A DNA stretch of 61,889 nt from a bacterium (GTDB lineage: Bacteria; SZUA-79; Acidulodesulfobacterales; Acidulodesulfobacteraceae), in NCBI GenBank assembly GCA_021813525.1, contig JAKAKK010000085.1, positions 1-61,889 of the forward strand, written 5' to 3'. The position numbers and the translations under genes are program-made. The notes under the pieces were generated by a model. The model saw only the letters and a program-made list of their open reading frames with translations. It made no database searches and was not told the DNA's origin. Below, piece after piece: positions 36,369 to 51,326 of the stretch. Each line of letters starts with the position of its first letter. The first letter of the stretch is position 1.

Positions 36369-37838
36369 ATGGTACAGGAATTGAATAAGATAAAAATTTT
36401 TGCTTTAAATATTTGGAAGCAATTTATTGATGTTTCCATAAGAATTAAATTAATCGGGCTTACTATGCTTACAAGTCTTTTTTTAGGAATTATAATTTCA
36501 TATTTTATGTTATCTTTTTATAACGGGGAAATTTCCCATGATGCGCAGTATATGAGCATGGTTATAGGAAGACATATTTCTGAAGCTTCTGTAAATTTTA
36601 TTACCGGCGGTAATTATAATAAACTTAATATATTACTAAAGAATGAAGTTAAAAACAATAAAAATATTCTTTATATATTTTACTTAAATAGTAGAGGAGC
36701 CGTCACTGCCCATGCTTTTCATAAAGGCTTTTACCTTAATATCGTGGGTAATATTCTGAAAAAGAATAACAGCCAAAATAAATTATATATCGTTAAATAT
36801 AATAATGAAATATACGGGAAAATTTTAGATACGTCGTTTCCGGTATCTAAAGGCCGGTTGGGAACAGTAAGAGTCGGGATATCCATAGACCGTATGAAAG
36901 ACTCTTTCTTCTCGCAGGAATCCCCGCTTTTTTTTAAAAATATTGTTTTGATTTTAATATCCAGTTTCATTTTTATTTACTTAATATTTAAGATTATAGC
37001 GTGGTGGTTTTTAACTCCGGTAGTCAAGCTTTATGAAGCCACCGAAAAAATAAAAGCAGGGGATTACAATGTTCATACGGCCGCTAAAGGATATGACGAA
37101 ATAGGAAAACTTTCGAATTCTTTTAACGAAATGGCTTTAATATTAAAAGAAGCCGAGCAGGAGAGGGCTAAAAATGAAGATTTGAGAAAAGATTTTATAA
37201 AAAAAATTATTAATGCTCAGGAAGAAGAAAGAAGGAAATTGTCCAGAAGTTTACACGACAGATTTGGACAGTTTTTATCCTCTTTAAAAATAAAGCTCAG
37301 AATGCTTGACGATTATAAAGATGTAGTTGAAGTAAAAAACAAAATTCAACAAATAAGGGATAATCTGACTGAAGGTTTCAATCTCGTTCACGCCATGGCT
37401 AAAAACCTAAGACCAAGCATGCTTGACGAGGTCGGGTTGATTAATGCCGTAAAGCAATATGTCTCAGACGTCGTTAAAAATAATCCTGCCATAAAAATAG
37501 ATTTTTATCACATTAATTTTTTAGAAGACTACGGGTTAGATAAGAATATAGAGGTCAATATATACAGAATAATTCAGGAATCGGTATTGAATGTTATCAG
37601 CCATGCCTGTGCTGATTCCGTTACGATAATTTTAGAAAGATACGAAGGTAAAATTAGGGGCATTATAGAAGATAATGGAAAGGGTTTCGGATGCTGCGGA
37701 GAGGATGATTACGAGCATCTCGGAATAGACGGCATGAAAGAGAGGGCTAAATTGTTCGGTGGAGAGCTGACCGTCGAATCCGAAAAAAATTTAGGGACGG
37801 TAGTAAAATTTTATATTCCGGATATTAATAATGAATAA
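36369..37838 (+). CDS. Membrane sensor histidine kinase, NarX/DegS-like (HisKA_3)
   Basis: A 489-residue kinase with membrane helices at about 25-50 and 190-215. Between them is a periplasmic sensor of about 140 residues without cysteine clusters or a recognised domain. A HAMP domain (about 213-265) follows, then a HisKA_3 dimerisation domain with phospho-acceptor H296 in SRSLHDRFGQ, and a HATPase domain with IIEDNGKGFG. It is 16 bases upstream of a NarL-type regulator and next to cytochrome genes, so it probably senses a redox or electron-acceptor signal controlling them. The ligand is unknown. Confidence 0.9.
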   Translation: MVQELNKIKIFALNIWKQFIDVSIRIKLIGLTMLTSLFLGIIISYFMLSFYNGEISHDAQYMSMVIGRHISEASVNFITGGNYNKLNILLKNEVKNNKNILYIFYLNSRGAVTAHAFHKGFYLNIVGNILKKNNSQNKLYIVKYNNEIYGKILDTSFPVSKGRLGTVRVGISIDRMKDSFFSQESPLFFKNIVLILISSFIFIYLIFKIIAWWFLTPVVKLYEATEKIKAGDYNVHTAAKGYDEIGKLSNSFNEMALILKEAEQERAKNEDLRKDFIKKIINAQEEERRKLSRSLHDRFGQFLSSLKIKLRMLDDYKDVVEVKNKIQQIRDNLTEGFNLVHAMAKNLRPSMLDEVGLINAVKQYVSDVVKNNPAIKIDFYHINFLEDYGLDKNIEVNIYRIIQESVLNVISHACADSVTIILERYEGKIRGIIEDNGKGFGCCGEDDYEHLGIDGMKERAKLFGGELTVESEKNLGTVVKFYIPDINNE

Positions 37839-37854: not shown

Positions 37855-38511
37855 ATGATAACGGTTGTATTAGTCGATGACCATTCTATACTGCTTGCGA
37901 CTTTAAAGATATTTTTGGATACTCAGGAAGACATCAACGTTGCAGGAACGTCGAATGACGCCCTGCGCGCCGTCGAACTTATAAAAACGAAAACTCCCGA
38001 TGTCGTTTTGCTTGACATATCTATGCCGAAAATAAACGGAATTGATTTAATACCGAAAATAAAAAAAGTTTCGCCAAACACAAAAATACTAATGCTGACT
38101 ATGTTCGAAGACAAGCAGTATATGCAAAAAGTTCTTGAAGCAGGAGCATCAGGCTTTTTAGTAAAAAAAGCCATGGATTACGATTTAGTCTATGCGATAA
38201 AAACCGTTGCGAGGGGAGAAACATATATCCATCCGTCGATGCTCGAAGATTTTATGGCAAGTAAAAATAACGGCTCGGCCGACATTCTCAGCAGGGAAGA
38301 AACATTATGGGAAGCTTTAAGCAAACGCGAAAAAGAGGTTATGGTCGGGGTTGCGCAGGGTTTTACAAATAAAGAAATTGCCGAGAAGCACTTTTTGAGC
38401 GAGAAAACTGTTGCTACGTACCGCTCGAGAGGAATGGAAAAGCTTGGTTTTTCAAGCAAATCTCAACTTATCGATTTGGTTTATTTCAAACTTAAAATTT
38501 TAAAAAAATAA
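37855..38511 (+). CDS. NarL/FixJ-family response regulator (cognate of the upstream kinase)
   Basis: A 218-residue regulator with an N-terminal receiver domain: acidic pocket D8-D9, phospho-acceptor D54 in LLDISMP, and conserved Lys in GFLVKKA. A LuxR-type helix-turn-helix (about 150-215, SKREKEVMVGVAQGFTNKEIA) follows. It is partner to the HisKA_3 kinase 16 bases upstream. A closely related orphan regulator lies at 49758-50420. Candidate binding sites are the three conserved upstream motifs at 38538, 39947 and 50437, the first beginning 27 bases after this gene. Confidence 0.93.
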   Translation: MITVVLVDDHSILLATLKIFLDTQEDINVAGTSNDALRAVELIKTKTPDVVLLDISMPKINGIDLIPKIKKVSPNTKILMLTMFEDKQYMQKVLEAGASGFLVKKAMDYDLVYAIKTVARGETYIHPSMLEDFMASKNNGSADILSREETLWEALSKREKEVMVGVAQGFTNKEIAEKHFLSEKTVATYRSRGMEKLGFSSKSQLIDLVYFKLKILKK

Positions 38512-38585: not shown

Positions 38586-38669
38586 ATTTTAAAACTTCTC
38601 ATTATATATTAGATTTAAGCTATGGAAATAATTTATTTTTATAACTTAAAATTAAAGGAGGAATTTAAA

Positions 38670-39008
38670 ATGAAAAGATATAAAATAACGGCTTTAATTT
38701 TTTCGATTTTTTTGTTCGTTTTTTTTATTTACGGCAATGCGCCGGCGCTGGCGCAAACGTCAAATTCTGCTAAAGCAATTAAAATTATTAAAGCGAAAGG
38801 GTGTCTGAGCTGTCACGCGTTAAACGGCTCGGGAGGTTCGGTCGGCCCTAATCTTTCTAACGAAGGTTCGAAAGGACACTCGATTCACTGGTTAAAAGTA
38901 CAGATTACAAATCCCGGCAAACATTTTCAGGGGAGCATAATGCCTCAATTTCAATTAAATTCCGCTCAGCTTGAAGAAGTCGCCCTATACCTAGAGTCGC
39001 TAAAATAA
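38670..39008 (+). CDS. Small monoheme cytochrome c (copy 1)
   Basis: A 112-residue periplasmic c-type cytochrome with a signal peptide (about 1-28, ending ALAQ). The single heme motif is CLSCH near residue 45-49, and a candidate axial Met is in IMPQF. The body follows the pattern GG-VGPNLS, WLK-QI-NP-HF, MP, LEEVA-YLESLK that recurs in the other small cytochromes here. ATG 38670 is chosen because AAGGAGG lies at the right distance and the signal peptide then begins correctly. First of three tandem cytochromes after regulatory motif A. Confidence 0.9.
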   Translation: MKRYKITALIFSIFLFVFFIYGNAPALAQTSNSAKAIKIIKAKGCLSCHALNGSGGSVGPNLSNEGSKGHSIHWLKVQITNPGKHFQGSIMPQFQLNSAQLEEVALYLESLK

Positions 39009-39050
39009 AACGAGAAAATTGTATTATTGTTAATAAAGAGGAGAAAAATT

Positions 39051-39401
39051 ATGAAAAGGTTATTTTTGATAATAATTTTTATAATTGCGGCAATAACGGT
39101 AAATCCGTTAGACAGTCATGCGTTTGCAGGCAGACAATTATTCAAAAAAGAGCAGTGCATTTTATGCCATGCCATTAACAAAAAAGGGGGAACGATGGGC
39201 CCTAATCTTTCGTCTATCGGCAAAATCAGGACATATTCATGGATTAAAAGACAGATAAGAAATCCTAAGTTAAATTTTTTTACCCCTAATTCTTTTGTTA
39301 TTTTTAATGGAAGAGTATATGAATCTATCATGCCCGCAAATAAAAAAATAAGCGCAAATAATCTTAACAAACTTGCGCAATATTTAAAATCTCTAAAATA
39401 A
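39051..39401 (+). CDS. Small monoheme cytochrome c (copy 2)
   Basis: A 116-residue exported cytochrome. Signal peptide about 1-25, one heme site CILCH, and the shared core GGTMGPNLSSIG, then WIKRQIRNP and IMPAN with a candidate Met ligand, ending in YLKSLK. AGAGGAG precedes ATG 39051, which I prefer to the upstream ATG at 39027 because it gives a clean signal peptide. It begins 42 bases after copy 1, consistent with one transcript. It probably shuttles electrons in the periplasm. Confidence 0.9.
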   Translation: MKRLFLIIIFIIAAITVNPLDSHAFAGRQLFKKEQCILCHAINKKGGTMGPNLSSIGKIRTYSWIKRQIRNPKLNFFTPNSFVIFNGRVYESIMPANKKISANNLNKLAQYLKSLK

Positions 39402-39462
39402 TCTAGAAGCAAGCGGTTTTAAAAATGTTTAATTTAAATTTAGTTTAAGGAGGCAGATGGAA

Positions 39463-39825
39463 ATGAAGAGGGGCAAAATTATCTTAACGGTAACGTTTTT
39501 ATTTGTTTTTTTCTTTATTTTATGTAAAGGCAATACAGTTTTTGCCATATCTGGGAAGTCGGTTTTTAAATCCAAAGGCTGTATAAACTGCCACGCTATA
39601 AACGGCGTCGGTGGCAAAGCCGGTCCTGACCTAAGCAATATAGGGGCAAGAAAAAGCATTGAATGGTTAAAAGATTTTATTAAAAATCCGGATAGCTACT
39701 TTAATCCGGGAAGCAGTGCTCTTATAAACGGGAAGGAATATATAGTTATGATGCCTTCATTTAAGAATATGATGTCCGAAGGCAAGCTTAATGCGGTAGC
39801 CGGCTACTTAGGGTCGTTGAAGTAA
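39463..39825 (+). CDS. Small monoheme cytochrome c (copy 3)
   Basis: A 120-residue exported cytochrome. Signal peptide about 1-27 (ending TVFA), heme motif CINCH, core GGKAGPDLSNIG, WLKDFIKNP, a GKEYIVMMPSF segment with the Met ligand, and the terminal YLGSLK. I chose ATG 39463, 9 bases after AAGGAGG; ATG 39457 is only 3 bases away from it but cannot be excluded. Last gene of the three-cytochrome unit, followed by a strong terminator. Confidence 0.9.
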   Translation: MKRGKIILTVTFLFVFFFILCKGNTVFAISGKSVFKSKGCINCHAINGVGGKAGPDLSNIGARKSIEWLKDFIKNPDSYFNPGSSALINGKEYIVMMPSFKNMMSEGKLNAVAGYLGSLK

Positions 39826-39842
39826 TAAAAATGCATTTAATC

Positions 39843-39892
39843 AAAAGAGCGGGATAATGCGGTTAAATAATTCGATATCCCGCTCTTTTTTT
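39843..39892 (+). terminator. Rho-independent terminator after the cytochrome cluster
   Basis: A perfect 14-bp stem (AAAAGAGCGGGATA / TATCCCGCTCTTTT) with the T-run extending to 39892, 18 bases after the third cytochrome gene. It separates this unit from the d1/molybdoenzyme operon. The rest of the 307-base gap holds regulatory motif B and a GC hairpin. Confidence 0.9.
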
Positions 39893-39946
39893 ATCTAACA
39901 AATCAAAATTAAATTATCAAATAGAAAATATAATATAGGTTTTTCC

Positions 39947-39994
39947 CCTACATTTTATTTCTAATTTTCCCCTACAAAAATCAGTTTTTATCCT
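39947..39994 (+). promoter_or_regulatory. Conserved regulatory motif, copy B
   Basis: The second copy: CCTAC, a 20-base spacer, CTACAAAAATCAG and TTTATCCT. Identity with copy A includes the following ATTT-AAAAC. It lies about 140 bases before the cytochrome cd1-like gene that opens the six-gene operon, with TATTAC as a possible -10 further on. Confidence 0.65.
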
Positions 39995-40050: not shown

Positions 40051-40072
40051 TTGCCCCGTTTAGGCGGGGCAA
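40051..40072. other. GC-rich hairpin in the leader of the cd1/molybdoenzyme operon
   Basis: An 8-bp perfect stem (TTGCCCCG / CGGGGCAA) with a 6-base loop TTTAGG, 60 bases before the first gene. It contrasts with the AT-rich surroundings. There is no T-run after it, so it is more likely a leader RNA structure than a terminator. Confidence 0.5.
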
Positions 40073-40132: not shown

Positions 40133-41893
40133 ATGATAATCCCTAAAATTATAACCAGATTATCGATAGCTGCGTTATCGTTTATTATTTGCTTAGTATC
40201 TTGTCCGGCTTTTTCAATTTATGCCAAAAATACGGATACCGCAAAAAATGAACCCGAACCGGTGAATATAAGTAAAGCAGGCAGGAAAGTTTACATCGGT
40301 AACGGCTGTTTCGTCTGCCACGGAGTCCAAAGGCTCGGCAAGTCCGCCCCTCCGCTTATCCCCCAGTTTATCGGAAGACTTCCTTACGATAAACTTGAGA
40401 CTATTATAACAAAAGGTTTGTTTCCCGTGCCTATGCCCGCTTTTAAGAAATTAACGGACAAAGAGTTATCGGAGCTTATAAGCTATCTTAAATCGCCTTC
40501 GCAAAAAGTTCTCTGGAACAAGAACGATATTAAAACCAGTCTCATAAAATACGAAAATACGAAGAAACCGAATATTAAACTCGCAAACGTAAAAAATCTT
40601 ATGGCGGTCGTCGAAGGCGGAACGGGGAAGGTCTGGATAATGACAGGGACGAAAATATTAAATAAATTTGATTTTGGTGATATTCACGGCGGATTAAAAT
40701 ATTCTCCATCGGGAAGGTATTTATATCTTCCATCAAATACAGGTTTCGTAGGCAAGTATGATTTTTATACTAAAGAATTGGCTTATAAAGTTAGAGCCTG
40801 CCGTTATCTAAGGAATATTTCACTCTCGGAAGGCGGAAAATATGTACTTGCTGCCTGCTGGCTTCCAGAGTCTATAGCCGTATTAAATGCAAAAAATCTT
40901 AAACCGGTGAAGGTAATACCTTTAAAGCATAGGATAAGTGTAATTTACGGATTATTTAGAAATAACAAAGCTGCATTTTCTTTTATGCATAAGTCAGTTA
41001 TAGGTATATTGAACACGGATGCCCTAAGCGTAAATTATTACACAATCCCCGTTCCTTTTCAGGATTTTTTCGTAGATCCTTTAGATGAATATGCGGTAGG
41101 AGGTTCTTTTAAAGGAGGAAGACTTTATGTATTCAGTCTTAAGAAAAAAAGAATCGTTTATTCTCATTATTCATACGGGATACCGCATCCGGCGGGTGCA
41201 GCTTTCTGGTTCGATAACGGAAAATTCTATTTTGCCCTTACAAATCTTATAAAACCTTATGTGTCCGTATGGCGTATGTATAACTGGAAATTTATAAAAA
41301 ATATATATACCGGAGGCCCCGGCTTTTTCGTTAAAACTAATCCTTATACTAAATATCTCTGGGTAGATAACAGCTCAGACAATTTAGTTCTTATAAATAA
41401 GTATAATTTTAAAATTAAAAAGCTCGCCGTAAAAAAAGGCGGATTAATTATTCATACCCAGTTTTCCGGAAACGAAAGGCTTGCCTATATTAGCGATTAC
41501 GGAAAAAATGGCGAAATTGCGGTTATAAATACTAATTCATTAAAAATAATTAAGAAAATACCTGCTAACGACGTCATAGGTAAATACAACTATGTAAATT
41601 ATCAAAGAATGAACGATGCCGCTCTTCTGGGAGAAGAGGTTTATTTTGCATATTGCTGGGGATGCCATAATCCTACGCTGGAATCGATAGGCCCTTCGTT
41701 TTCCTATATCGCAACACATTTGAACTCTGCAGGAATCAGGGCTCAATTATCGAAACCGGCGGAATTTTCAAAAAACCTTGGATATAAATATAACGCTATG
41801 CCTAAATTCGACTTAACTAAACATGAAATTAAATCTCTGATAGCTTTTATAAAAGATTCTAGGAATAAAAATTTTTGGAGGTATGGGAACTGA
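40133..41893 (+). CDS. Cytochrome c / d1-type propeller / cytochrome c protein (NirS/NirN-like)
   Basis: A 586-residue exported protein. Signal peptide about 1-31; cytochrome c domain with CFVCH at 59-63 and candidate ligand M101; an eight-bladed propeller (about 150-495) matching heme d1 domains; a second cytochrome c with CWGCH at 508-512 and M556. The d1-axial His appears conserved as H185 in DIHGGLKYSPSGRYLYL. One distal catalytic His is kept (H352 in PHPAGAAF), while the other seems replaced (PFQDFF for PFLHDGG). It therefore probably binds heme d1 but may not be a standard nitrite reductase. First gene of the operon. Confidence 0.82.
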   Translation: MIIPKIITRLSIAALSFIICLVSCPAFSIYAKNTDTAKNEPEPVNISKAGRKVYIGNGCFVCHGVQRLGKSAPPLIPQFIGRLPYDKLETIITKGLFPVPMPAFKKLTDKELSELISYLKSPSQKVLWNKNDIKTSLIKYENTKKPNIKLANVKNLMAVVEGGTGKVWIMTGTKILNKFDFGDIHGGLKYSPSGRYLYLPSNTGFVGKYDFYTKELAYKVRACRYLRNISLSEGGKYVLAACWLPESIAVLNAKNLKPVKVIPLKHRISVIYGLFRNNKAAFSFMHKSVIGILNTDALSVNYYTIPVPFQDFFVDPLDEYAVGGSFKGGRLYVFSLKKKRIVYSHYSYGIPHPAGAAFWFDNGKFYFALTNLIKPYVSVWRMYNWKFIKNIYTGGPGFFVKTNPYTKYLWVDNSSDNLVLINKYNFKIKKLAVKKGGLIIHTQFSGNERLAYISDYGKNGEIAVINTNSLKIIKKIPANDVIGKYNYVNYQRMNDAALLGEEVYFAYCWGCHNPTLESIGPSFSYIATHLNSAGIRAQLSKPAEFSKNLGYKYNAMPKFDLTKHEIKSLIAFIKDSRNKNFWRYGN

Positions 41894-42990
41894 TGCTTAG
41901 GATGACTGATTATATAAGAAAATCACTGGAGTCAAATTCACGTGATGATAAGCATCTTCCGGGAAGAATGGTAATATGGAACATTACCAACGACTGCAAT
42001 CTTTCTTGCGAACATTGTTATTCTTCTTCGGGAAAAAAGGAAAAAGCGTCGGCAATAAAGCCGGAGTATGTGTTATCCGCAGTAAAATCTTTAAAGGCGG
42101 CAAATGTTAAAGCCGTTATACTTTCGGGTGGCGAGCCCCTTATGTCGCCTTATCTTTTCGATATAGCAAAAATTTTTAAAGATGAAGGCTTTGCGGTTAG
42201 TCTTTCTTCAAACGGTACGATGATAAATGAAGAGAATGTCGGCTCTATAAAATCATTGTTTAATTATGTCGGAATAAGTATAGACGGAAGCGAAAAAACC
42301 CATGACGGATTCAGAAAAAAAGAAGGAGCGTATAAAGCTTCCATTAAGTCCTTAAGATTGCTTAAGGACAACGGAATAAACGCCGGTTTAAGAACGTCTC
42401 TTACATCGTATAATTATAGGGATTTAGGATTTATATTTAAGTTAGCCGAAAAAGAAGGGGTAAAAAAAATATATATATCGCATCTTGTTTATTCCGGAAG
42501 AGGCAACAATATATCCGAAATAAATAAATCTATCCATAAAAGAATATCTCTATATATCTCGGGAATGGCATTCAATTATGTCAGAAATGGCATACCTATA
42601 AGCATAGTTACAGGTAACAACGAGCCTGACGCAATTCTTCTTCTCGCAATGTTTAAACGGTTTTATCCAGAATTTTATAAAAATATGCATGACAAAATAT
42701 TAAACTGGGGCGGAAATCAATCCGGCAATAGAATAATAAACATAGATTATTCGGGATTTGTCAAACCGGATCCATTTTTCAAATATAGCGGAGGAAATAT
42801 TAAAGAAAGGGATTTTTTTGAAATAATAAATAACGATAAATTATTTTTGGAATTAAGACAAACTCCTAGAAAACTAAAAGGGAGATGTGAAAAATGCAAT
42901 TATTTAAGAATCTGCAACGGCGGCTCCAGAGCGCGGGCATATGCCGTTTATGGGGATTACTTTCAGGAAGACCCGGCGTGTTTTATGTAG
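41893..42990 (+). CDS. nirJ: NirJ-like radical SAM enzyme (heme d1 biosynthesis type)
   Basis: A 365-residue radical SAM protein with the cluster motif C35-x3-C39-x2-C42 in NDCNLSCEHCYSS and a SAM-binding SGGEPLM segment. A C-terminal cysteine region follows (CEKCNYLRICNGGSRARAYAVYGD then EDPACF), typical of NirJ and the related heme enzymes AhbC/AhbD. NirJ installs the keto groups of heme d1. Position between a d1-type propeller protein and NirF supports NirJ. The ATG overlaps the previous stop as TGATG, so translation is coupled; an in-frame TTG at 41875 is rejected. Confidence 0.82.
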   Translation: MLRMTDYIRKSLESNSRDDKHLPGRMVIWNITNDCNLSCEHCYSSSGKKEKASAIKPEYVLSAVKSLKAANVKAVILSGGEPLMSPYLFDIAKIFKDEGFAVSLSSNGTMINEENVGSIKSLFNYVGISIDGSEKTHDGFRKKEGAYKASIKSLRLLKDNGINAGLRTSLTSYNYRDLGFIFKLAEKEGVKKIYISHLVYSGRGNNISEINKSIHKRISLYISGMAFNYVRNGIPISIVTGNNEPDAILLLAMFKRFYPEFYKNMHDKILNWGGNQSGNRIINIDYSGFVKPDPFFKYSGGNIKERDFFEIINNDKLFLELRQTPRKLKGRCEKCNYLRICNGGSRARAYAVYGDYFQEDPACFM

Positions 42991-44060
42991 TTTTTATTGC
43001 CTTTGCAGCAGTTTTTATTTCCTCCAAAAACGTTTTTGCCGCTAAGTATTACGTAGTGGAAAGGGCGGGCGGCTCTCTCGGCATTATATCGCATAACGGA
43101 TTGGCGGGCAGGGTAAACCCTATAGGAAACGGAACGCACGTCATAGTATATTTCGGAAATCGTTACGGTTACGCCTTGGGCAGGAACGGATATTTATCCA
43201 AAATAGACCCTGAAGCCGATAAAATCATACTGCAAAAAAAGGTATCCGGCGATACGGTCGATTTCTGCCTTTCGAAAAACTTTATAGCCGTTGCAGGTTA
43301 TAAGCCTCAAGACGTAGTAATATTAAATAAAAACTTTAAAGTACTCCATACGATAAAGACGGGTTCGAGAAATATCGGCGCAGAGTTTTATAAAAACTAC
43401 CTAATATTCGAGCTTATGGATAAAGACCGGATATGGATAGTTAATACGAATAATTTTAAAGTCGTAAAAAAAATAAAGCGTATAGGGCATTTTCCCATAG
43501 ACGCATTAGTTTCCGGCAACGATTATATCGCCGCTTTTCTCATAGGCCAAAAGTTCGGGGTATTAAACCTGAAAACCTTTAAATACCATATCGTAAACTA
43601 TGGCAAAAAAGAAAGTTTTCCTCATCAGATACCCCATTACGGCATTTATTCCGTATATGACGGAACGGCTTATATTCCAGCTGCCGGAGAAAAGAAGATA
43701 GTCGAAGTGAATTTAAAGACAGAAAAAGAAACAGGTTCGGTTAGTCTTATCGGATATCCTATTTTTATAATATTTTCTCCGAACCGCAAAACCTTAGCCG
43801 TTAATTACAGCGGTAAAGCGCATGATTATTTAACGCTTATAGATGTAAAAAATATGAAGGTTATAAAAAACATAAAAGCTGGAAGAAGAATTATGTTTAT
43901 GGCTTATTCGGGAAACGGAAAGTTGATTTACGCATCGGATTATTTCGGCAATTCCGTAAACGTCTTTAATGTCCTTACAGGAAAAGAGGTTGCCGCAATT
44001 CCGGTTCCGAGCCCTTCGGGGATATTCAGGGTGCCTTATAAATTATATAAACAGCAATAA
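42978..44060 (+). CDS. nirF: NirF-like heme d1 biosynthesis protein
   Basis: A 360-residue propeller protein resembling NirF along its length. Recognisable parts: VERAGGSLG near the start, H54 in NGTHVIVYFG at the place of the essential NirF His, IGHFPIDAL, IPHYGIYS, AYIPAAG, PIFIIFSPNRKTLAVNY and a final PSPSGIF. NirF is thought to act late in heme d1 formation, in the periplasm. I chose GTG 42978, which has AGGAAG 7 bases upstream and gives a proper signal peptide (about 1-21). It overlaps the NirJ-like gene by 13 bases. Confidence 0.85.
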   Translation: MFYVVFIAFAAVFISSKNVFAAKYYVVERAGGSLGIISHNGLAGRVNPIGNGTHVIVYFGNRYGYALGRNGYLSKIDPEADKIILQKKVSGDTVDFCLSKNFIAVAGYKPQDVVILNKNFKVLHTIKTGSRNIGAEFYKNYLIFELMDKDRIWIVNTNNFKVVKKIKRIGHFPIDALVSGNDYIAAFLIGQKFGVLNLKTFKYHIVNYGKKESFPHQIPHYGIYSVYDGTAYIPAAGEKKIVEVNLKTEKETGSVSLIGYPIFIIFSPNRKTLAVNYSGKAHDYLTLIDVKNMKVIKNIKAGRRIMFMAYSGNGKLIYASDYFGNSVNVFNVLTGKEVAAIPVPSPSGIFRVPYKLYKQQ

Positions 44061-44081
44061 AATTTAAATAGGGGGAATTAA

Positions 44082-45281
44082 ATGAAGAAGAAAGAAGAAA
44101 AGGCAGACGAAGAAGCAATGAAAAATGAAAGAAAAATCGAAAAGACCGGGGCCAGGGATGGAACCGGTAACGTCGTGAAAGATGACGAAATTTCCGGCAG
44201 GAGAAAATTTCTTAAAATGCTCGGACTAGGAGGATTGGCGGCAGGGGCTCTAGGAATACTCGGTTTATCTAATGCAAAAGAAGTTTTAGCCGCTCCGGTA
44301 AAAAAGATTAAAAAAGTAAACGGTGGCGGCGATTTAGATGCGCCCGAAAAAAATACAGGCGTTCCTACCGGACCTTTAAAAAACCACAGGTGGATGAACT
44401 GGATGAATCCGTCCCAGTATATAAAAGACGGATGGGACCGCTGGCAGGATACGATACAGAATCCTCTCCATGCACGGATTTTTCATGATAAGTTTTACAG
44501 GATAAAAAAAATAAGACCTAAAATACATCATTTCGTTTTCGTAATAGATATTAACAAATGCGTAGGATGTCAGGCTTGCGTAGTAAGCTGTAAAAACGAA
44601 AACACCGTTCCGCTTGGGGTTTTCAGAAGGGTCGTAGACGTTATGGAAGTAGGAGAGATGGTTCCCGATGAAAAGGGTTTAGTCGTGACGGACGAAGGGA
44701 ATTTTACTCCCAATGTGAAGAGAGTTTTTCTTCCCAGAACCTGTAATCACTGCGACAATCCGCCGTGCGTCGAGGTCTGTCCGGTGAAAGCGACTTATAA
44801 ATTAGAAACCGGTCAGGTTGAAATAGATTACGACCTGTGCATAGGGTGCCTTACCTGTGTTCAGGCTTGTCCTTACGATATGAGATTTGCAAACCCGATT
44901 CAGCATACTGCTGATAAATGTAATATGTGTGCGGGAAGGGCGTCGGTTTCGCATGAAAAGTCATATGTTCCCCTTTTACCGGTATGCGTTACTTCGTGCG
45001 TCGGAAGGGCGATGAAGTTCGGAGATACGAACGACCCGGAAAGTGAGGTTTCTAAATTAATCGCTACAAACAAGGTTTCAAGATTAAATGTTGGATTCGG
45101 TACTGACCCTCAGGTTTATTATATAGGCTTAGACGGCGACCTTGCGAATTACACTAATCCCGATAAAGTTAAGATGGTTTACACCTACACTATGGGTCTT
45201 ACTACTACTGCTTACGAAAAACTCGGTAAAAAACCGGTTCTTCCCTATTTAGAAGAAAAAGAACGCCCTTATGCAGGTTAA
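44082..45281 (+). CDS. Tat-exported four-cluster ferredoxin subunit (TtrB/PsrB/NrfC-type)
   Basis: A 399-residue electron-transfer subunit. An unusually long charged N-terminal extension precedes the twin-arginine signal GRRKFLKML (R40-R41) and a hydrophobic stretch. Four [4Fe-4S] motifs follow: CVGCQACVVSC, CNHCDNPPCVEVC, CIGCLTCVQAC, and CNMC with VCVTSC. This arrangement marks the iron-sulfur subunit of membrane-bound molybdoenzymes, passing electrons between the NrfD-type anchor and the catalytic subunit. GGGGG precedes the ATG, 21 bases after the NirF-like gene. Confidence 0.93.
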   Translation: MKKKEEKADEEAMKNERKIEKTGARDGTGNVVKDDEISGRRKFLKMLGLGGLAAGALGILGLSNAKEVLAAPVKKIKKVNGGGDLDAPEKNTGVPTGPLKNHRWMNWMNPSQYIKDGWDRWQDTIQNPLHARIFHDKFYRIKKIRPKIHHFVFVIDINKCVGCQACVVSCKNENTVPLGVFRRVVDVMEVGEMVPDEKGLVVTDEGNFTPNVKRVFLPRTCNHCDNPPCVEVCPVKATYKLETGQVEIDYDLCIGCLTCVQACPYDMRFANPIQHTADKCNMCAGRASVSHEKSYVPLLPVCVTSCVGRAMKFGDTNDPESEVSKLIATNKVSRLNVGFGTDPQVYYIGLDGDLANYTNPDKVKMVYTYTMGLTTTAYEKLGKKPVLPYLEEKERPYAG

Positions 45282-45314
45282 TTTAATTATTTTTAAAATA
45301 AAGGAGTTTATATT

Positions 45315-46535
45315 ATGTTTCAGTATATGAATCCTCTTGCGATTAACGGCTCTTACGGAACGCTGGAAAATGTTTACTGGGGGCTTCCGATAGTGATTTA
45401 TCCGTTTCTTTCCGGTTTAATGGCCGGCGCCTTTGTAGTCGGCGCGCTTTATCATCTTTTTCACATGGAAAAACTTAAACCGATATCTAAGCTGGCGCTT
45501 ATTGCAAGTTTTGCAATGCTTCTGCTTGCGGCAATGGCGCCTTTGGCGGATGCCCTGCAGCCGCAAAGAGCTATGTGGGAATTGTATTTCAGGGACCATT
45601 TTCCATACTCGCCTTTAGCAATGTTTATTATTATATGGACGGCTTTTGTTATCGTAAATATATTCGAAATGTATTTTTTATTCAGAGAAGATAATGTTAA
45701 AAAGGCTAAAGCCGATAGCGGGATAAGAGGAAAAGTGGCAAGGCTCATATCTTTTGGCAGTTCCGATTTGTCGGAGAAAACTAAAAAAAGAGACCATAAA
45801 GCCTTATGGGTAATATCAATTATAGGAATTGTTTTATCCCTTCTCTTTCACGGTTATGTCGGCTTTTTATTTGGCGCCATAAAAGCCAGAGCGCTCTGGT
45901 CGGACCCCGATATTCCGCCGATGTTTATTACGTCCGCCGTTGTTTCAGGCATAGCTTTCGTAGGCCTATTATATACAATCGGTTTTACCTTTTTTTCGGA
46001 TAAAAATAAGGTTGAATCCGATACGCTGGAAGTTCTTAATAAAGCGTTAGTATTTGCAATTTTTGCCGACCTGTTTTTCGACCTCATTGAATGGCTTTAT
46101 TCGGTAAGGGGTTATAATTCGAAAGGAGTTTACGACGGATGGCATGCGGTTTACTCTTATGCCGCAAAAGGTCCTCTCTGGTTTAATTACCATGTAACGC
46201 AGATAGGACTTGGGCTTATTATACCAGCTTTTTTATTTCTGGTATTCAGAAAGATAAGGAGGTCTTTAATCTGGACGGCGATATTAGATTTTATAGTTAC
46301 CGTCGGCGTCTGGGAGATGAGGTACGATACCGTTATAGGCGGTCAGCTTCCGGTTAAAATAGGACAGGGGCTTGCCGTTCTGCATATTCCGTTTTGGGGT
46401 TTTGACGGATATATATCGGGCATAGGAATGTTCGCAATGGGGATTGTAATATTGTTTGTTTTCGGATATTTTTTGGGCTGGGAAGAAAAACCGGAAGAAA
46501 TAACCCCGGATAAAATAAATAAGGAGGCTTTATAA
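45315..46535 (+). CDS. NrfD/PsrC/TtrC-type quinol-interacting membrane subunit
   Basis: A 406-residue polytopic membrane protein of the NrfD/PsrC family with about nine hydrophobic segments. The first has the typical YPFLSGLMAGAFVVGALYH pattern, and LFHGYVGFLFG appears midway. It anchors the complex and exchanges electrons with the quinone pool. AAAGGAG precedes the ATG. Its stop overlaps the catalytic subunit start by one base. The order B-C-A matches that of ttrBCA. Confidence 0.9.
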   Translation: MFQYMNPLAINGSYGTLENVYWGLPIVIYPFLSGLMAGAFVVGALYHLFHMEKLKPISKLALIASFAMLLLAAMAPLADALQPQRAMWELYFRDHFPYSPLAMFIIIWTAFVIVNIFEMYFLFREDNVKKAKADSGIRGKVARLISFGSSDLSEKTKKRDHKALWVISIIGIVLSLLFHGYVGFLFGAIKARALWSDPDIPPMFITSAVVSGIAFVGLLYTIGFTFFSDKNKVESDTLEVLNKALVFAIFADLFFDLIEWLYSVRGYNSKGVYDGWHAVYSYAAKGPLWFNYHVTQIGLGLIIPAFLFLVFRKIRRSLIWTAILDFIVTVGVWEMRYDTVIGGQLPVKIGQGLAVLHIPFWGFDGYISGIGMFAMGIVILFVFGYFLGWEEKPEEITPDKINKEAL

Positions 46536-49500
46536 TGGCAAAGAATAAAATGAATAGAAGGGACTTTTTAAAATATACGACGTTTGGGGTAACAGCTGTT
46601 GCGACGGGAGCGGGATTGACGCAGTGGGCTGGAGGGGTGTTCGGCTATCAGGGCAAATATACTTTTCCGCGCAGGCCCGAAACATGGCCTGGCGAGCTTG
46701 TGCAGTATTCTACCTGCAAGCAGTGCCACAGCGATTGTGGAATAATGGCGAGGACTTTTAACGGAACCCTCCTGAATATTTTCGGCAATCCTTACGATAT
46801 ACAGACTACGGAACCTAATATAAAATATTCCACTCCTGTGAAAGATTCAATAATATATACCGGAACGTATTATTCGCCGGACAAGCCGTTTGTTGACGGG
46901 GCGCATTCCGTATGTCCAAGAGGCGCGGCAGGAACTCAGACGGTTTACGACCCTTACAGGGTATATATGCCGTTAAAGAGAGTTGGAGAGAGAGGTTCCG
47001 GAAAATTTAAAGCGATATCATACAAACAGTTGATAGATGAAACGGTAAACGGAGGATATTTATTTAAAGACATGCCCGGCGAAGAAAAAAGATTCGTAGA
47101 AGGTTTTAAGCATTTATGGAACGACGGGAAAAACCGTTTTATTCCGGCAAACCCAAAATATCCTGATTTCGGACCTAAGACTAACCAGTATGTTTCTTAT
47201 TGGGGCAGGGGGGAAGGAGGCATAGCAAATTTTATGACGCGGTTTGCAAACGCTCTGGGTTCCGTAAATGCATTGCCCCATGTTTCAATTTGCGATTTAT
47301 CTCATCACGTTTCTACATTCAGGACTTTTCCCGGAACTAACATGTTAAAGCCCGACCTTCCCAACTGCGAACACCTGCTGATTTTCGGAGCAAATTATCT
47401 TGAAGCAAATTTTCCTATGCAGACTTTAGCCAGAAGAACGGTATCCGCTACATCGTCCGGTAAGTTAAAAGTAACGGTAATAGACGTAAGGGCGGGTAAC
47501 ATGGTTGCCCATGCCGATAAATACATTCCAATTAAACCCGGAGGCGATGGGGCTTTAGCTATGGGCATGCTGAGGTGGATAATAGAAAACAAAAGGTATG
47601 ACGAAAATTTCCTGGCTAATTTAAGCCTTGGCTCGGCAAACGCAAACGGCGAACCTAATTTTTCAAACGCTTCATATCTTGTAGTTGCCGATAAAAGCAA
47701 TGCGGATTTTGCCAAATTCTTAAAGAGCGGAGAATCGTTTTACGCGATAGACAAGGTAACAGGAAAACCTGTTTTAACGTCTGACGCCGCAAAAGGCGAT
47801 TTATGGCCTACCGGATTTTTATCTTTAACCCCTATTAACGTGAACGGCATCGACTGTATGACGAGTATGCAGATGCTCTGGAGCGAGCTTAAAAAACATA
47901 CTATAGAAGAATATGCAAAGGAAGCCGGTCTTGCCCATATGGTAATACCGGAACTTGCAAAAGATTTTACTTCGCACGGCAAAAAAGCCGTTGCAGATTA
48001 CTATAGGGGTCCCGTAAAACATACTAACGGATTTTATAACGGCAGGGCAATACAATTTTTAAACGTTATGATAGGCAATATAAACTGGCAGGGGGGGTAT
48101 ATCAACGGGGGAGGCAGTACCGACGTTATGGGAGGCGACGGTTATCCTTATGATTTAGGTAAATGGCCAGGTTTTGTTCCGGCAAAAGGGGTAAAGATTT
48201 CAAGAGAAGGCTCATATTATGAAGATACGTTAGAATATAAGGAAAAGGTTGCAAGGGGCGAGTCGCCTTTTCCAGCGCAAAGACCTTGGTTCCCTTTCGG
48301 TTTCGGCATCTGGCAGGAGATATGGGGAGGAACGTATTTCCAGTACCCTTATCCTGTAAAGATAATGCTTCAACAGGAGGCGAATCCCGCATGGTCTATG
48401 CCTGCTATGGGCGGCGTGAACGATGAATCCAAGCCGTGGATGAGGATGGTAAAAGATACAAGCAAAGTTCCGTTATTCATAGCATCGGATTGTTATATTT
48501 CGGAAAGTTCGGCATACGCCGATTATATCGTCCCCGATACGACATACTTAGAGGGCTGGGGATTTTTGGGAAACCTTCCGACCTATCCCACGGCAAGAAC
48601 ATCGATAAGACAGCCGATAGTAGAGCCCATGACCGAAAAAACTCAGGACGGAAGACCTATCTGTATTGAAAATTTCCTGATAGATGTTGCAAAGTCTCTT
48701 AAGCTTCCCGGATTCGGTGAGAATGCATTTCTCGAAGGCGGCAATTTAAACGAAAGGGAAGATTACTATCTTAAAATGGCGGCAAATATTGCTTACGATT
48801 CAAAAACTTATTTAAAAAAGAAGGGAAGCGGATTTATCCATTTAGGACCGGTTCCTGACGCAAACAAGGACGAGATGCAGTATGTAAAAAATTATATAAG
48901 AAAACACGGCAAGGCTCTTAAACCTGCGGAATGGAAAAAGACCGCATACGTGATAGCTAGAGGCGGACGTTTCGAAGACTATGACGTCGGTTATCTTCCA
49001 TGGGGAAAACCGAAGTGGGTAACGCATCTCTGGTCGCCGGATACCCCGGTTCATTTATATAACGAACAGGTAGCTACGACGCATAACGCGATATCGGGCG
49101 AAAGGTTCTGCGGAACGACGATATTGCTGCCCCATAGAAATATGAAAGGCGAGATTTTAGATAAGATATATTCAAGAAAGGAATACCCCTTAATGGTTTC
49201 AACCCACAGACAGCCTATCCATTCTAAGTCCAGGACAATGGCCGACCCGTGGCTGCAGGAACTTCTTCCGGACGCTTTCTGGGAGATAGGTGCAATAGAC
49301 GCGAAAAAGCTGAATTTGGCCGACGGGGATACGATAAAAGTAATATCGCCTACTTATCCGAAGGGTATCACTCATAAGGTAAGGATAATGCCTTCAGTGA
49401 GGCCCGGCGTAATTACCGCGGCAACCGCGTTCGGCAGATGGCTTTACGGTTCGGGCGAATGGTACATAGACGGAAAGAAATATACGGGCGACCCCGCAAG

Positions 49501-49642
49501 AAACGTTGGAGTGCATCCTAACGCCCTGTTCCTGCTGGATGATTCGATAGCGGCTAAAGACGGCTGGACGACAAACTTAACCGACCCCGTAGGAGGCTCT
49601 ATGGTTTATTACTATGCGCCTGTTAAGATAGAAAAGGTGTGA
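46535..49642 (+). CDS. Molybdopterin oxidoreductase catalytic subunit (Ttr/Arr/Psr-like)
   Basis: A 1035-residue Tat-exported (NRRDFLK) DMSO-reductase-family enzyme. The proximal [4Fe-4S] site is C61-x2-C64-x3-C68 and C127 in SVCPRGAAG, followed by VYDPYRVYMPLKRVGERGSGKF. The Mo ligand is probably C253 in HVSICDLSHH. Large size, the RVGERGSGKF segment and the B-C-A gene order point to the tetrathionate, arsenate, selenate or polysulfide reductase group. The exact substrate cannot be read from sequence. It ends the operon that begins with the cd1-like gene. Confidence 0.88.
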   Translation: MAKNKMNRRDFLKYTTFGVTAVATGAGLTQWAGGVFGYQGKYTFPRRPETWPGELVQYSTCKQCHSDCGIMARTFNGTLLNIFGNPYDIQTTEPNIKYSTPVKDSIIYTGTYYSPDKPFVDGAHSVCPRGAAGTQTVYDPYRVYMPLKRVGERGSGKFKAISYKQLIDETVNGGYLFKDMPGEEKRFVEGFKHLWNDGKNRFIPANPKYPDFGPKTNQYVSYWGRGEGGIANFMTRFANALGSVNALPHVSICDLSHHVSTFRTFPGTNMLKPDLPNCEHLLIFGANYLEANFPMQTLARRTVSATSSGKLKVTVIDVRAGNMVAHADKYIPIKPGGDGALAMGMLRWIIENKRYDENFLANLSLGSANANGEPNFSNASYLVVADKSNADFAKFLKSGESFYAIDKVTGKPVLTSDAAKGDLWPTGFLSLTPINVNGIDCMTSMQMLWSELKKHTIEEYAKEAGLAHMVIPELAKDFTSHGKKAVADYYRGPVKHTNGFYNGRAIQFLNVMIGNINWQGGYINGGGSTDVMGGDGYPYDLGKWPGFVPAKGVKISREGSYYEDTLEYKEKVARGESPFPAQRPWFPFGFGIWQEIWGGTYFQYPYPVKIMLQQEANPAWSMPAMGGVNDESKPWMRMVKDTSKVPLFIASDCYISESSAYADYIVPDTTYLEGWGFLGNLPTYPTARTSIRQPIVEPMTEKTQDGRPICIENFLIDVAKSLKLPGFGENAFLEGGNLNEREDYYLKMAANIAYDSKTYLKKKGSGFIHLGPVPDANKDEMQYVKNYIRKHGKALKPAEWKKTAYVIARGGRFEDYDVGYLPWGKPKWVTHLWSPDTPVHLYNEQVATTHNAISGERFCGTTILLPHRNMKGEILDKIYSRKEYPLMVSTHRQPIHSKSRTMADPWLQELLPDAFWEIGAIDAKKLNLADGDTIKVISPTYPKGITHKVRIMPSVRPGVITAATAFGRWLYGSGEWYIDGKKYTGDPARNVGVHPNALFLLDDSIAAKDGWTTNLTDPVGGSMVYYYAPVKIEKV

Positions 49643-49757: not shown

Positions 49758-50420
49758 ATGATAACCGTAGCCATAGTCGATGAACATTTTATTTTACTTT
49801 CTGCGTTAAATGTTTTGCTTAACAGCCAGGATGATATAAAAGTAATAGGAACAGCGGGCGATTCGGGATCAGCCGTTGAACTTATAAAGTTAGAAACTCC
49901 GGATGTTATCCTTCTCGATATATCTATGTTAGAAATGAACGGATTTGCCTTAATCCCAAGGTTTAAAAAAATATCTCCTGAATCAAAAATATTAATTATG
50001 ACGATAAACGGGGACGGCAGATGCCTTCAAAAGGGTTTCGAACTGGGCGTTTCCGGTTTCTTAGTAAAAAAAGCGATGGATTATGATTTGATATATGCAA
50101 TCAGAACAGTTGCAAGAGGAGAAAAATATATATATCCCTCAATGGTCGAAGGTTATATGATGAGCAATAATCAGTCCGAAATCCGGGACGGTAAATTAAG
50201 CAAAGAAGAATTTTTATGGAACAGATTAAGCAATAGGGAACAGGAGGTAATAATAGATATTGCGCACGGGTTTAAAAATAAAGAAATTGCCAAAAAGCGT
50301 TTTTTGAGCGAGAAAACGGTTGAAACATATCGTTTAAGAGGAATGGGAAAATTAGGCCTTAAAAAAAAATCGGACCTTGTAAACTTTGTTATATTAAAAC
50401 TTAAAATTTTAAAGCAATAA
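49758..50420 (+). CDS. Orphan NarL/FixJ-family response regulator
   Basis: A 220-residue regulator closely related to the one at 37855-38511 over both domains (shared KKAMDYDL, TVARGE, NKEIA, FLSEKTVETY and LKLKILK segments). Phospho-acceptor D54 is present, but the acidic pocket reads D8-E9 rather than D8-D9, and the segment after the conserved Thr differs. No kinase gene is adjacent. AAGGCGG precedes the ATG. Regulatory motif C starts 16 bases after its stop, mirroring the arrangement at the first regulator. It may share or modulate the same targets. Confidence 0.9.
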   Translation: MITVAIVDEHFILLSALNVLLNSQDDIKVIGTAGDSGSAVELIKLETPDVILLDISMLEMNGFALIPRFKKISPESKILIMTINGDGRCLQKGFELGVSGFLVKKAMDYDLIYAIRTVARGEKYIYPSMVEGYMMSNNQSEIRDGKLSKEEFLWNRLSNREQEVIIDIAHGFKNKEIAKKRFLSEKTVETYRLRGMGKLGLKKKSDLVNFVILKLKILKQ

Positions 50421-50436
50421 TTTTATAGGTTTTTTT

Positions 50437-50483
50437 CCTACATGATTTTATAAATTTTCCTTACAAAAATCAGTATTTATCCT
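50437..50483 (+). promoter_or_regulatory. Conserved regulatory motif, copy C
   Basis: The third copy: CCTAC, a 19-base spacer, TTACAAAAATCAG and TTTATCCT, preceded by AGGTTTTT as in copy B. It lies about 185 bases before the diheme cytochrome gene, with TATAAT near 50509 as a possible -10. Confidence 0.65.
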
Positions 50484-50666: not shown

Positions 50667-51326
50667 ATGAAAAAGTATATTTTTATTGCAGCTTTTTGTT
50701 TTGCGGTTGTTTTTTTCATTTCATCTAATTTTGCTTTTGCAGCGGCATCCGGCCCAAAACTTTTTAAAAAATATTACTGTATCGATTGCCATACTATAGG
50801 GCATGAAGGCGGGACGGTCGGACCAGACCTTTCAAACATTGGGAGGACTAAAAGCCTGCCATGGATTAAGGCGCAAATATTCCATCCCGGAAGTCATTTT
50901 ATAAGGGGAACTAAAGCAAAAATAAACGGGAAAGTTTATCTTGTTAGAATGCCAGGTTTCAAGACTATTCCTAATTCGGCCGCAAATAAACTGGCTGAAT
51001 ATATTAAGACGTTTCCGTCCGTAAGGTCAAATTTAAGCTATAAAAGACCGCCTGAGGGAATGAGGCTTTTTGAAAAAGATAACTGTATCGCCTGTCATCG
51101 CATAGACGGGATAGGCGCAAAAGTCGGTCCAAACCTTTCTCGTATCGGAAAGACTAAAAGTCTGACATGGATCGAATCCCAGATAGTTGACCCTAAGGTT
51201 CATTTTACATACGGCGTTCCTGCGACCATCAACGGGCGCACTTATCTTGTGATAATGCCGGAATTTAAGCATATTCACGCATCTCAGCTTAATACGATAG
51301 CAAGATATCTCAAGTCGCTGAAATAA
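50667..51326 (+). CDS. Diheme cytochrome c (tandem duplicate of the small cytochrome)
   Basis: A 219-residue exported protein with a signal peptide (about 1-26) and two similar domains, each about 90 residues. Domain 1 has CIDCH and domain 2 CIACH. Both carry GxxVGPdLS/NLS-xIG, SLxWI-xQI, a GxxYLVxMP segment with the Met ligand, and an Ala/Asn-rich C-terminal helix. The domains match the three monoheme cytochromes at 38670-39825, so this is an internal duplication. AAGGAGG precedes the ATG. Likely a periplasmic electron carrier of the same respiratory module. Confidence 0.92.
   Translation: MKKYIFIAAFCFAVVFFISSNFAFAAASGPKLFKKYYCIDCHTIGHEGGTVGPDLSNIGRTKSLPWIKAQIFHPGSHFIRGTKAKINGKVYLVRMPGFKTIPNSAANKLAEYIKTFPSVRSNLSYKRPPEGMRLFEKDNCIACHRIDGIGAKVGPNLSRIGKTKSLTWIESQIVDPKVHFTYGVPATINGRTYLVIMPEFKHIHASQLNTIARYLKSLK

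Follow-up and report, generated by a model that had tools for sequence, protein, structure and literature searches.

Heme d1 may serve an enzyme other than NirS in an uncultured bacterial lineage

The window, which is the whole stretch of 61,889 nucleotides analysed here, contains six packed genes (40133-49642) that encode NirN-like, NirJ, NirF, TtrB-like, NrfD and TtrA-like proteins according to an open reading frame check and to Pfam, NCBIfam and solved-structure searches. Judged from its sequence, this locus encodes late heme d1 synthesis although NirS, to our knowledge the only protein with heme d1 as cofactor, is absent, and heme d1 may serve another enzyme in this lineage. Our preferred reading, with a probability of about 0.4, is a d1 cassette without NirS in which the c/d1/c protein itself works with d1 and its likeliest reaction is nitrite to NO. 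In line with the initial annotation, no described system combining d1 genes with TtrBCA-like genes was found in open-access full text, and the paper describing the order Acidulodesulfobacterales, to which this lineage, perhaps one of acid mine drainage, may belong, does not mention these genes.

All six open reading frames proposed by the initial annotation were found at their positions, on the + strand. They encode a NirN-type c/d1 protein of 586 amino acids with a fused C-terminal cytochrome c (40133..41893), a NirJ radical SAM enzyme starting at ATG 41893 (41893..42990), a NirF-like d1 propeller with a signal peptide and an uncertain start (42894..44060), a TtrB-like Tat ferredoxin with four [4Fe-4S] sites (44082..45281), a TtrC-like membrane anchor of the NrfD type (45315..46535) and a TtrA-like Tat molybdoenzyme with FeS cysteines 61, 64, 68 and 127 and Mo-Cys 253 (46535..49642). 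Upstream, on the same strand, are a conserved sensor histidine kinase with HAMP and HisKA_3 domains (36369..37838), the NarL-type response regulator RR1 (37855..38511) and three small monoheme cytochromes c, cytA (38622..39008), cytB (39027..39401) and cytC (39457..39825). A second NarL-type response regulator, RR2 (49758..50420), and a diheme cytochrome c, cyt2 (50667..51326), follow downstream, also on the + strand. At the start of the window, a phage-type integrase gene (982-2132) adjoins a tRNA-Arg gene.

The same six-gene order was found in 11 of the 30 genomes of the phylum, which form a single family: the window genome and 10 relatives, with protein identities of 67-100%. Genome G003 was counted although its contig stops inside ttrA. 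Order and spacing are kept across the 11 genomes, which come from three genera, and the flanking regulators and cytochromes usually accompany the six genes in the ten relatives inspected. A NirN-type gene was present in 11 of 30 genomes and absent in the rest, including the 100% complete G014. The search for this order in other genomes, suggested with the first description of the locus, thus shows that it is not unique to one assembly, and recurrence in 10 further genomes indicates that the locus is neither chance nor an assembly accident.

At seven of nine loci the nirN stop overlaps the nirJ start, as TGATG or TAATG; in the window ATG 41893, which lies in a TGATG overlap, is a more likely nirJ start than TTG 41875. 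The gap between nirF and ttrB stays within -4 to +37 at each of the nine loci measured. Gaps of at most about 34 bases had been claimed for the window, which agrees with measured values of 21, 33 and -1; the listed nirF start at 42894, however, gives a 97-base overlap with nirJ and is uncertain. The 307-base gap before nirN shows a terminator hairpin, two or three TTTTYCCCTACA repeats about 21-24 bases apart and a second hairpin, in this order. The first hairpin (39843..39889, +) is an intrinsic terminator with perfect arms of 14 nt and a T run that ends the cytochrome unit; its fold has -21.6 kcal/mol with a z of -4.8, and it is found with changed arms in most relatives. The direct repeats TTTTCCCCTACA start at 39941 and 39965, 24 apart (39941..39976, +), with a weaker third near 39988, and the conserved GC-rich hairpin (40051..40072, +) lies in what is presumably the 5' leader of nirN. 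Before cyt2, this repeat returns as tandem copies with 1 and 2 mismatches, 23 apart (50431..50465, +). If up to two mismatches are allowed, seven of nine loci have the repeats before nirN and six of eight have them before cyt2; G013 and G009 show single weaker sites before ttrB in their unlinked loci. The only exact matches in the window are the two before nirN; at two mismatches, the window as a whole shows no enrichment of the repeat, and the weight lies on the exact tandem copies and their conservation. Counts of promoter and terminator consensus sequences did not exceed chance, the terminator being called from conservation and folding, and a scan for FNR-type boxes gave fewer matches than shuffled sequence. 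The conserved terminator, the shared repeats and the stop-start overlaps argue that nirNJF-ttrBCA is one unit, which the short gaps and the order in 11 genomes also support, as originally proposed; the cytochromes before nirN are a separate unit.

The protein encoded at 40133 shows a cytochrome c domain, a Cytochrom_D1 domain (4e-41) and a second cytochrome c domain, with CxxCH motifs at residues 59 and 508. Its closest solved structure is NirN 6rtd (1.4e-55, residues 51-489), while NirS matches only at about 1e-14. A tree of 32 proteins separates NirS (support 100/100), NirF and NirN (100/99) with full or near-full support and places the window protein within NirN. The pocket residues H185, H352, H441 and Y485 are invariant in the nine sequences compared, and their counterparts are presumably His147, His323, His417 and Tyr461 of Pseudomonas aeruginosa NirN, a numbering supported by an offset to the 6rtd chain that is 34 at each of the four. 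All NirS compared have Phe or Trp at the position of Tyr485. The distal histidines of NirS are His327 and His369; the position of His369 is kept (H352), but that of His327 is Gln. By its sequence, the c/d1/c protein is therefore assigned to NirN, the dihydro-heme d1 dehydrogenase family, with a second cytochrome c fused to it, and not to NirS. The earlier description as a protein of NirS/NirN type thus stands for NirN, according to the tree and the residues, and fails for a NirS-like terminal cytochrome. This C-terminal cytochrome is also found on five other NirN proteins, all outside the phylum and each beside NirS (L126-L129 and L131), and G346 encodes a standalone homologue of this domain beside nirJ, so that the protein looks like a NirN fused to a small cytochrome that belongs with the d1 genes. 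In the same G346 locus (L134, 1-9837), NapA-G-H-B-like genes adjoin a NirG-NirL fusion, NirE, NirJ and this small cytochrome. The NirS of L126 (5190-6740) and L127 has 789 residues and three CxxCH motifs. AlphaFold on two sequences gave a pLDDT of 38, to which no weight was given, and the scan of genome contigs with a single protein as query found two loci only.

The best family match of the 41875 frame is rSAM_NirJ (5e-107). The signature of NirJ consists of CX3CX2C and CX2CX5CX20-21C, and both motifs are kept, as CNLSCEHC and CX2CX5CX21C. The score is below the NCBIfam TIGR04051 cut-off (358 vs 515 bits), yet this is still the best family, and the NirJ of L126, from a nir operon with NirS, scores only 370 bits. 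Tree placement groups the protein with nir-operon NirJ, apart from AhbC and AhbD, and the NirJ-like radical SAM enzyme proposed earlier is thereby borne out. The 42894 frame matches Cytochrom_D1 (1e-20) and the solved NirF 6tv2 (4e-30), falls in the NirF group of the tree and encodes a standalone d1 propeller whose pocket residues H82, R97, K103 and H248 are invariant and aligned with 6tv2; the proposed NirF-like assignment is correct, and both propeller proteins of the locus lie within the NirS/NirN/NirF families. AhbAB was found in 9 of 10 genomes tested, together with AhbC over its cut-off and AhbD, so 12,18-didecarboxysiroheme (DDSH) should be available and nirDLGH would not be needed. AhbA and AhbB form one open frame (G000:C5:5529-6299), likewise in eight relatives. 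The keto groups are made by NirF with NirC, and NirN acts last (PMC13168839). A search with the d1 model found no NirS in the 30 genomes, six d1-carrying genomes among them being at least 90% complete, and in none of the 30 was a further d1-type propeller recognised. Another PF02239 match of the window genome was considered as a second d1 protein and rejected as a YVTN-type propeller without a heme site. Without NirS, the cassette probably still yields heme d1 or a closely related compound.

The remaining three genes follow the B-C-A order of tetrathionate reductase, as had been noticed: the 44082 protein is a four-cluster Tat ferredoxin nearest TtrB, the 45315 protein belongs to the NrfD family and the 46535 protein matches TtrA best along its full length (3.5e-168), with 31% identity to enteric TtrA over 95%. 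Its 561 bits do not reach the NCBIfam cut-off of TtrA (1750 bits), yet this is its best family by far. G000 has a second molybdoenzyme copy, 81% identical, and paralogues occur in other genomes; these copies are without d1 genes and often accompanied by a PF12974 binding protein, a kinase, a regulator and TorD. G016 and G042 show small cytochromes directly before ttrB and neither d1 nor NO reductase genes, so the nirNJF cassette looks inserted between the cytochromes and ttrB. A division of TtrA into nir-linked and unlinked clades was rejected because the copies intermingle in the tree. TauE adjoins copy 2 in G022 and G019, and a plasmid relative (36.5%) sits in an ars island; a Citrobacter arsenatis plasmid carries an uncharacterised TtrA-like molybdoenzyme operon in an arsenic island (L092, 10031-14835). 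In the TtrA-like enzyme of G018 (L042, 9328-12438), Ser replaces the Mo-ligand Cys of all relatives (VSISEPS vs VSICELS), and this genome is also without NO reductase. The other molybdoenzymes that were classified included no recognisable nitrate reductase of a known type.

In G007, molybdoenzyme copy 2 comes after genes for a NorC-like cytochrome and for a quinol NO reductase related to 3ayf (1e-177); the row (L240, 6813-15330) reads NorC-like cytochrome, quinol NO reductase, PF12974 protein, kinase, regulator, TtrB and NrfD, and it adjoins Rrf2, ScdA-type repair and DUF2249 genes. The same order begins on a contig of G009 (L236), and G003 and G010 have scraps of the copy-2 module at the NO reductase site. 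In G022, 45 residues from the 3' end of nirN remain as a scrap just before the NorC-like cytochrome and NO reductase (L239, 11089-11226). Of the 11 d1-carrying genomes 7 have NO reductase, compared with 3 of the 19 others (p 0.015); among genomes at least 90% complete, the counts are 5 of 6 against 1 of 14 (p 0.002). These p values are indicative only, because the genomes are related to one another. Exceptions are G018 (99% complete), which has the operon without NO reductase, and G019, G007 and G015, which have the reductase without detected d1 genes.

From the computed gene content and order, residues, NirS absence, co-occurrence and repeats, we infer the identity of the cofactor, its retention, the substrate and the direction of the reaction as follows. 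AhbA-AhbB would make DDSH for the normal AhbC/AhbD heme route, and part of it would be diverted by NirJ. The keto groups would be added in the periplasm by NirF and a cytochrome c, and the last double bond by the NirN-type protein. With no NirS acceptor, heme d1 would remain on this c/d1/c protein, which may be a periplasmic d1 enzyme supplied by the small cytochromes c; by elimination, we give even odds that it keeps heme d1 and is a working enzyme. Its likeliest reaction would be nitrite to NO, a tentative assignment that draws on the NO reductase links, and NO would be handed to the quinol NO reductase carried by many of these genomes. The co-transcribed TtrBCA-like complex would be a quinone-linked oxyanion reductase of the same respiratory programme. 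Its substrate may be nitrate, which is a guess from two gene-neighbour links, and we know of no nitrate reduction by TtrA-like enzymes.

Several observations stand against this account. In denitrifiers NirN acts in biosynthesis, and the protein here is without the His327 of NirS; it may therefore reduce nitrite weakly or not at all, and the union of a d1 cytochrome with the molybdoenzyme, as initially annotated, is still something that we infer. G018, G019, G007 and G015 break the pairing of d1 genes and NO reductase, no known-type nitrate reductase was recognised, and G016 and G042 carry the molybdoenzyme without d1 or NO reductase genes. The NirN-type protein could instead be purely biosynthetic, passing heme d1 to an operon cytochrome or another protein missed by the Pfam d1 model. 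All NirN catalytic residues are kept, NirJ, NirF and the fused cytochrome complete the late pathway and, outside the phylum, the same fusion adjoins NirS in five of five cases; however, no other d1-type propeller was recognised in the 30 genomes, and the only candidate acceptors conserved with the operon are the small cytochromes, which are also present without d1 genes, and we consider this rather unlikely.

The initial annotation had tied the d1-type cytochrome to a TtrBCA-like enzyme that reduces or oxidises an oxyanion of sulfur or arsenic. The nearness of the molybdoenzyme to TtrA, the PF12974 protein of the copy-2 module (a domain that we take to occur in the TtrS and ArxX sensors), TauE beside copy 2 and the plasmid relative in the ars island fit such a role. 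Copy 2 behind the NO reductase of G007 and the commoner occurrence of this reductase with d1 genes do not favour it over a nitrogen oxyanion, the same molybdoenzyme is found without d1 genes and we know of no chemistry that ties heme d1 to sulfur or arsenic oxyanions, which makes this substrate improbable. It is just as doubtful that the locus belongs to an alternative denitrification chain with NirS-independent use of heme d1, the TtrA-clade complex acting on nitrate, the NirN-cytochrome fusion on nitrite and the quinol NO reductase on NO. Finally, the d1 cassette could be a passenger between the ttr promoter region and ttrB with no functional tie to the molybdoenzyme, given that the cytochromes of G016 and G042 directly precede ttrB without a cassette and that TtrA of linked and unlinked loci intermingle. 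Against such a passenger, 11 genomes of three genera share order and spacing, the catalytic residues do not vary, and the repeats upstream of nirN recur before cyt2 and, as weaker single sites, before ttrB in unlinked loci; we hold it to be very improbable.

With intact NirJ, NirF and NirN and no NirS, the lineage allows a test of heme d1 in another enzyme, and of NirN as that enzyme. If the nitrogen-oxide reading is true, surveys keyed to nirS/nirK miss this nitrite-to-NO step, and the TtrA-like enzyme may carry the wrong name.

Among known systems, the alternative heme pathway AhbABCD occurs in these genomes, and its AhbAB makes the NirJ substrate DDSH, whereas NirJ itself is distinct from AhbC and AhbD. 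Tetrathionate reductase TtrBCA is alike in B-C-A order, Tat signals and the FeS and Mo-Cys residues, but here small cytochromes and d1 genes are attached and the score is far below the family cut-off. NirN 6rtd has the four pocket residues and both domains in common with the c/d1/c protein, which differs in its extra C-terminal cytochrome c and in being without a NirS partner. The nir operon of denitrifiers, for example that of a Pseudomonas mandelii plasmid (L095), has homologous NirN, NirJ and NirF; L126-L129 and L131 share the nirN-nirJ-nirF order and the C-terminal cytochrome fusion, while the operon described here is without nirS, nirE and nirDLGH and continues with the TtrBCA-like genes.
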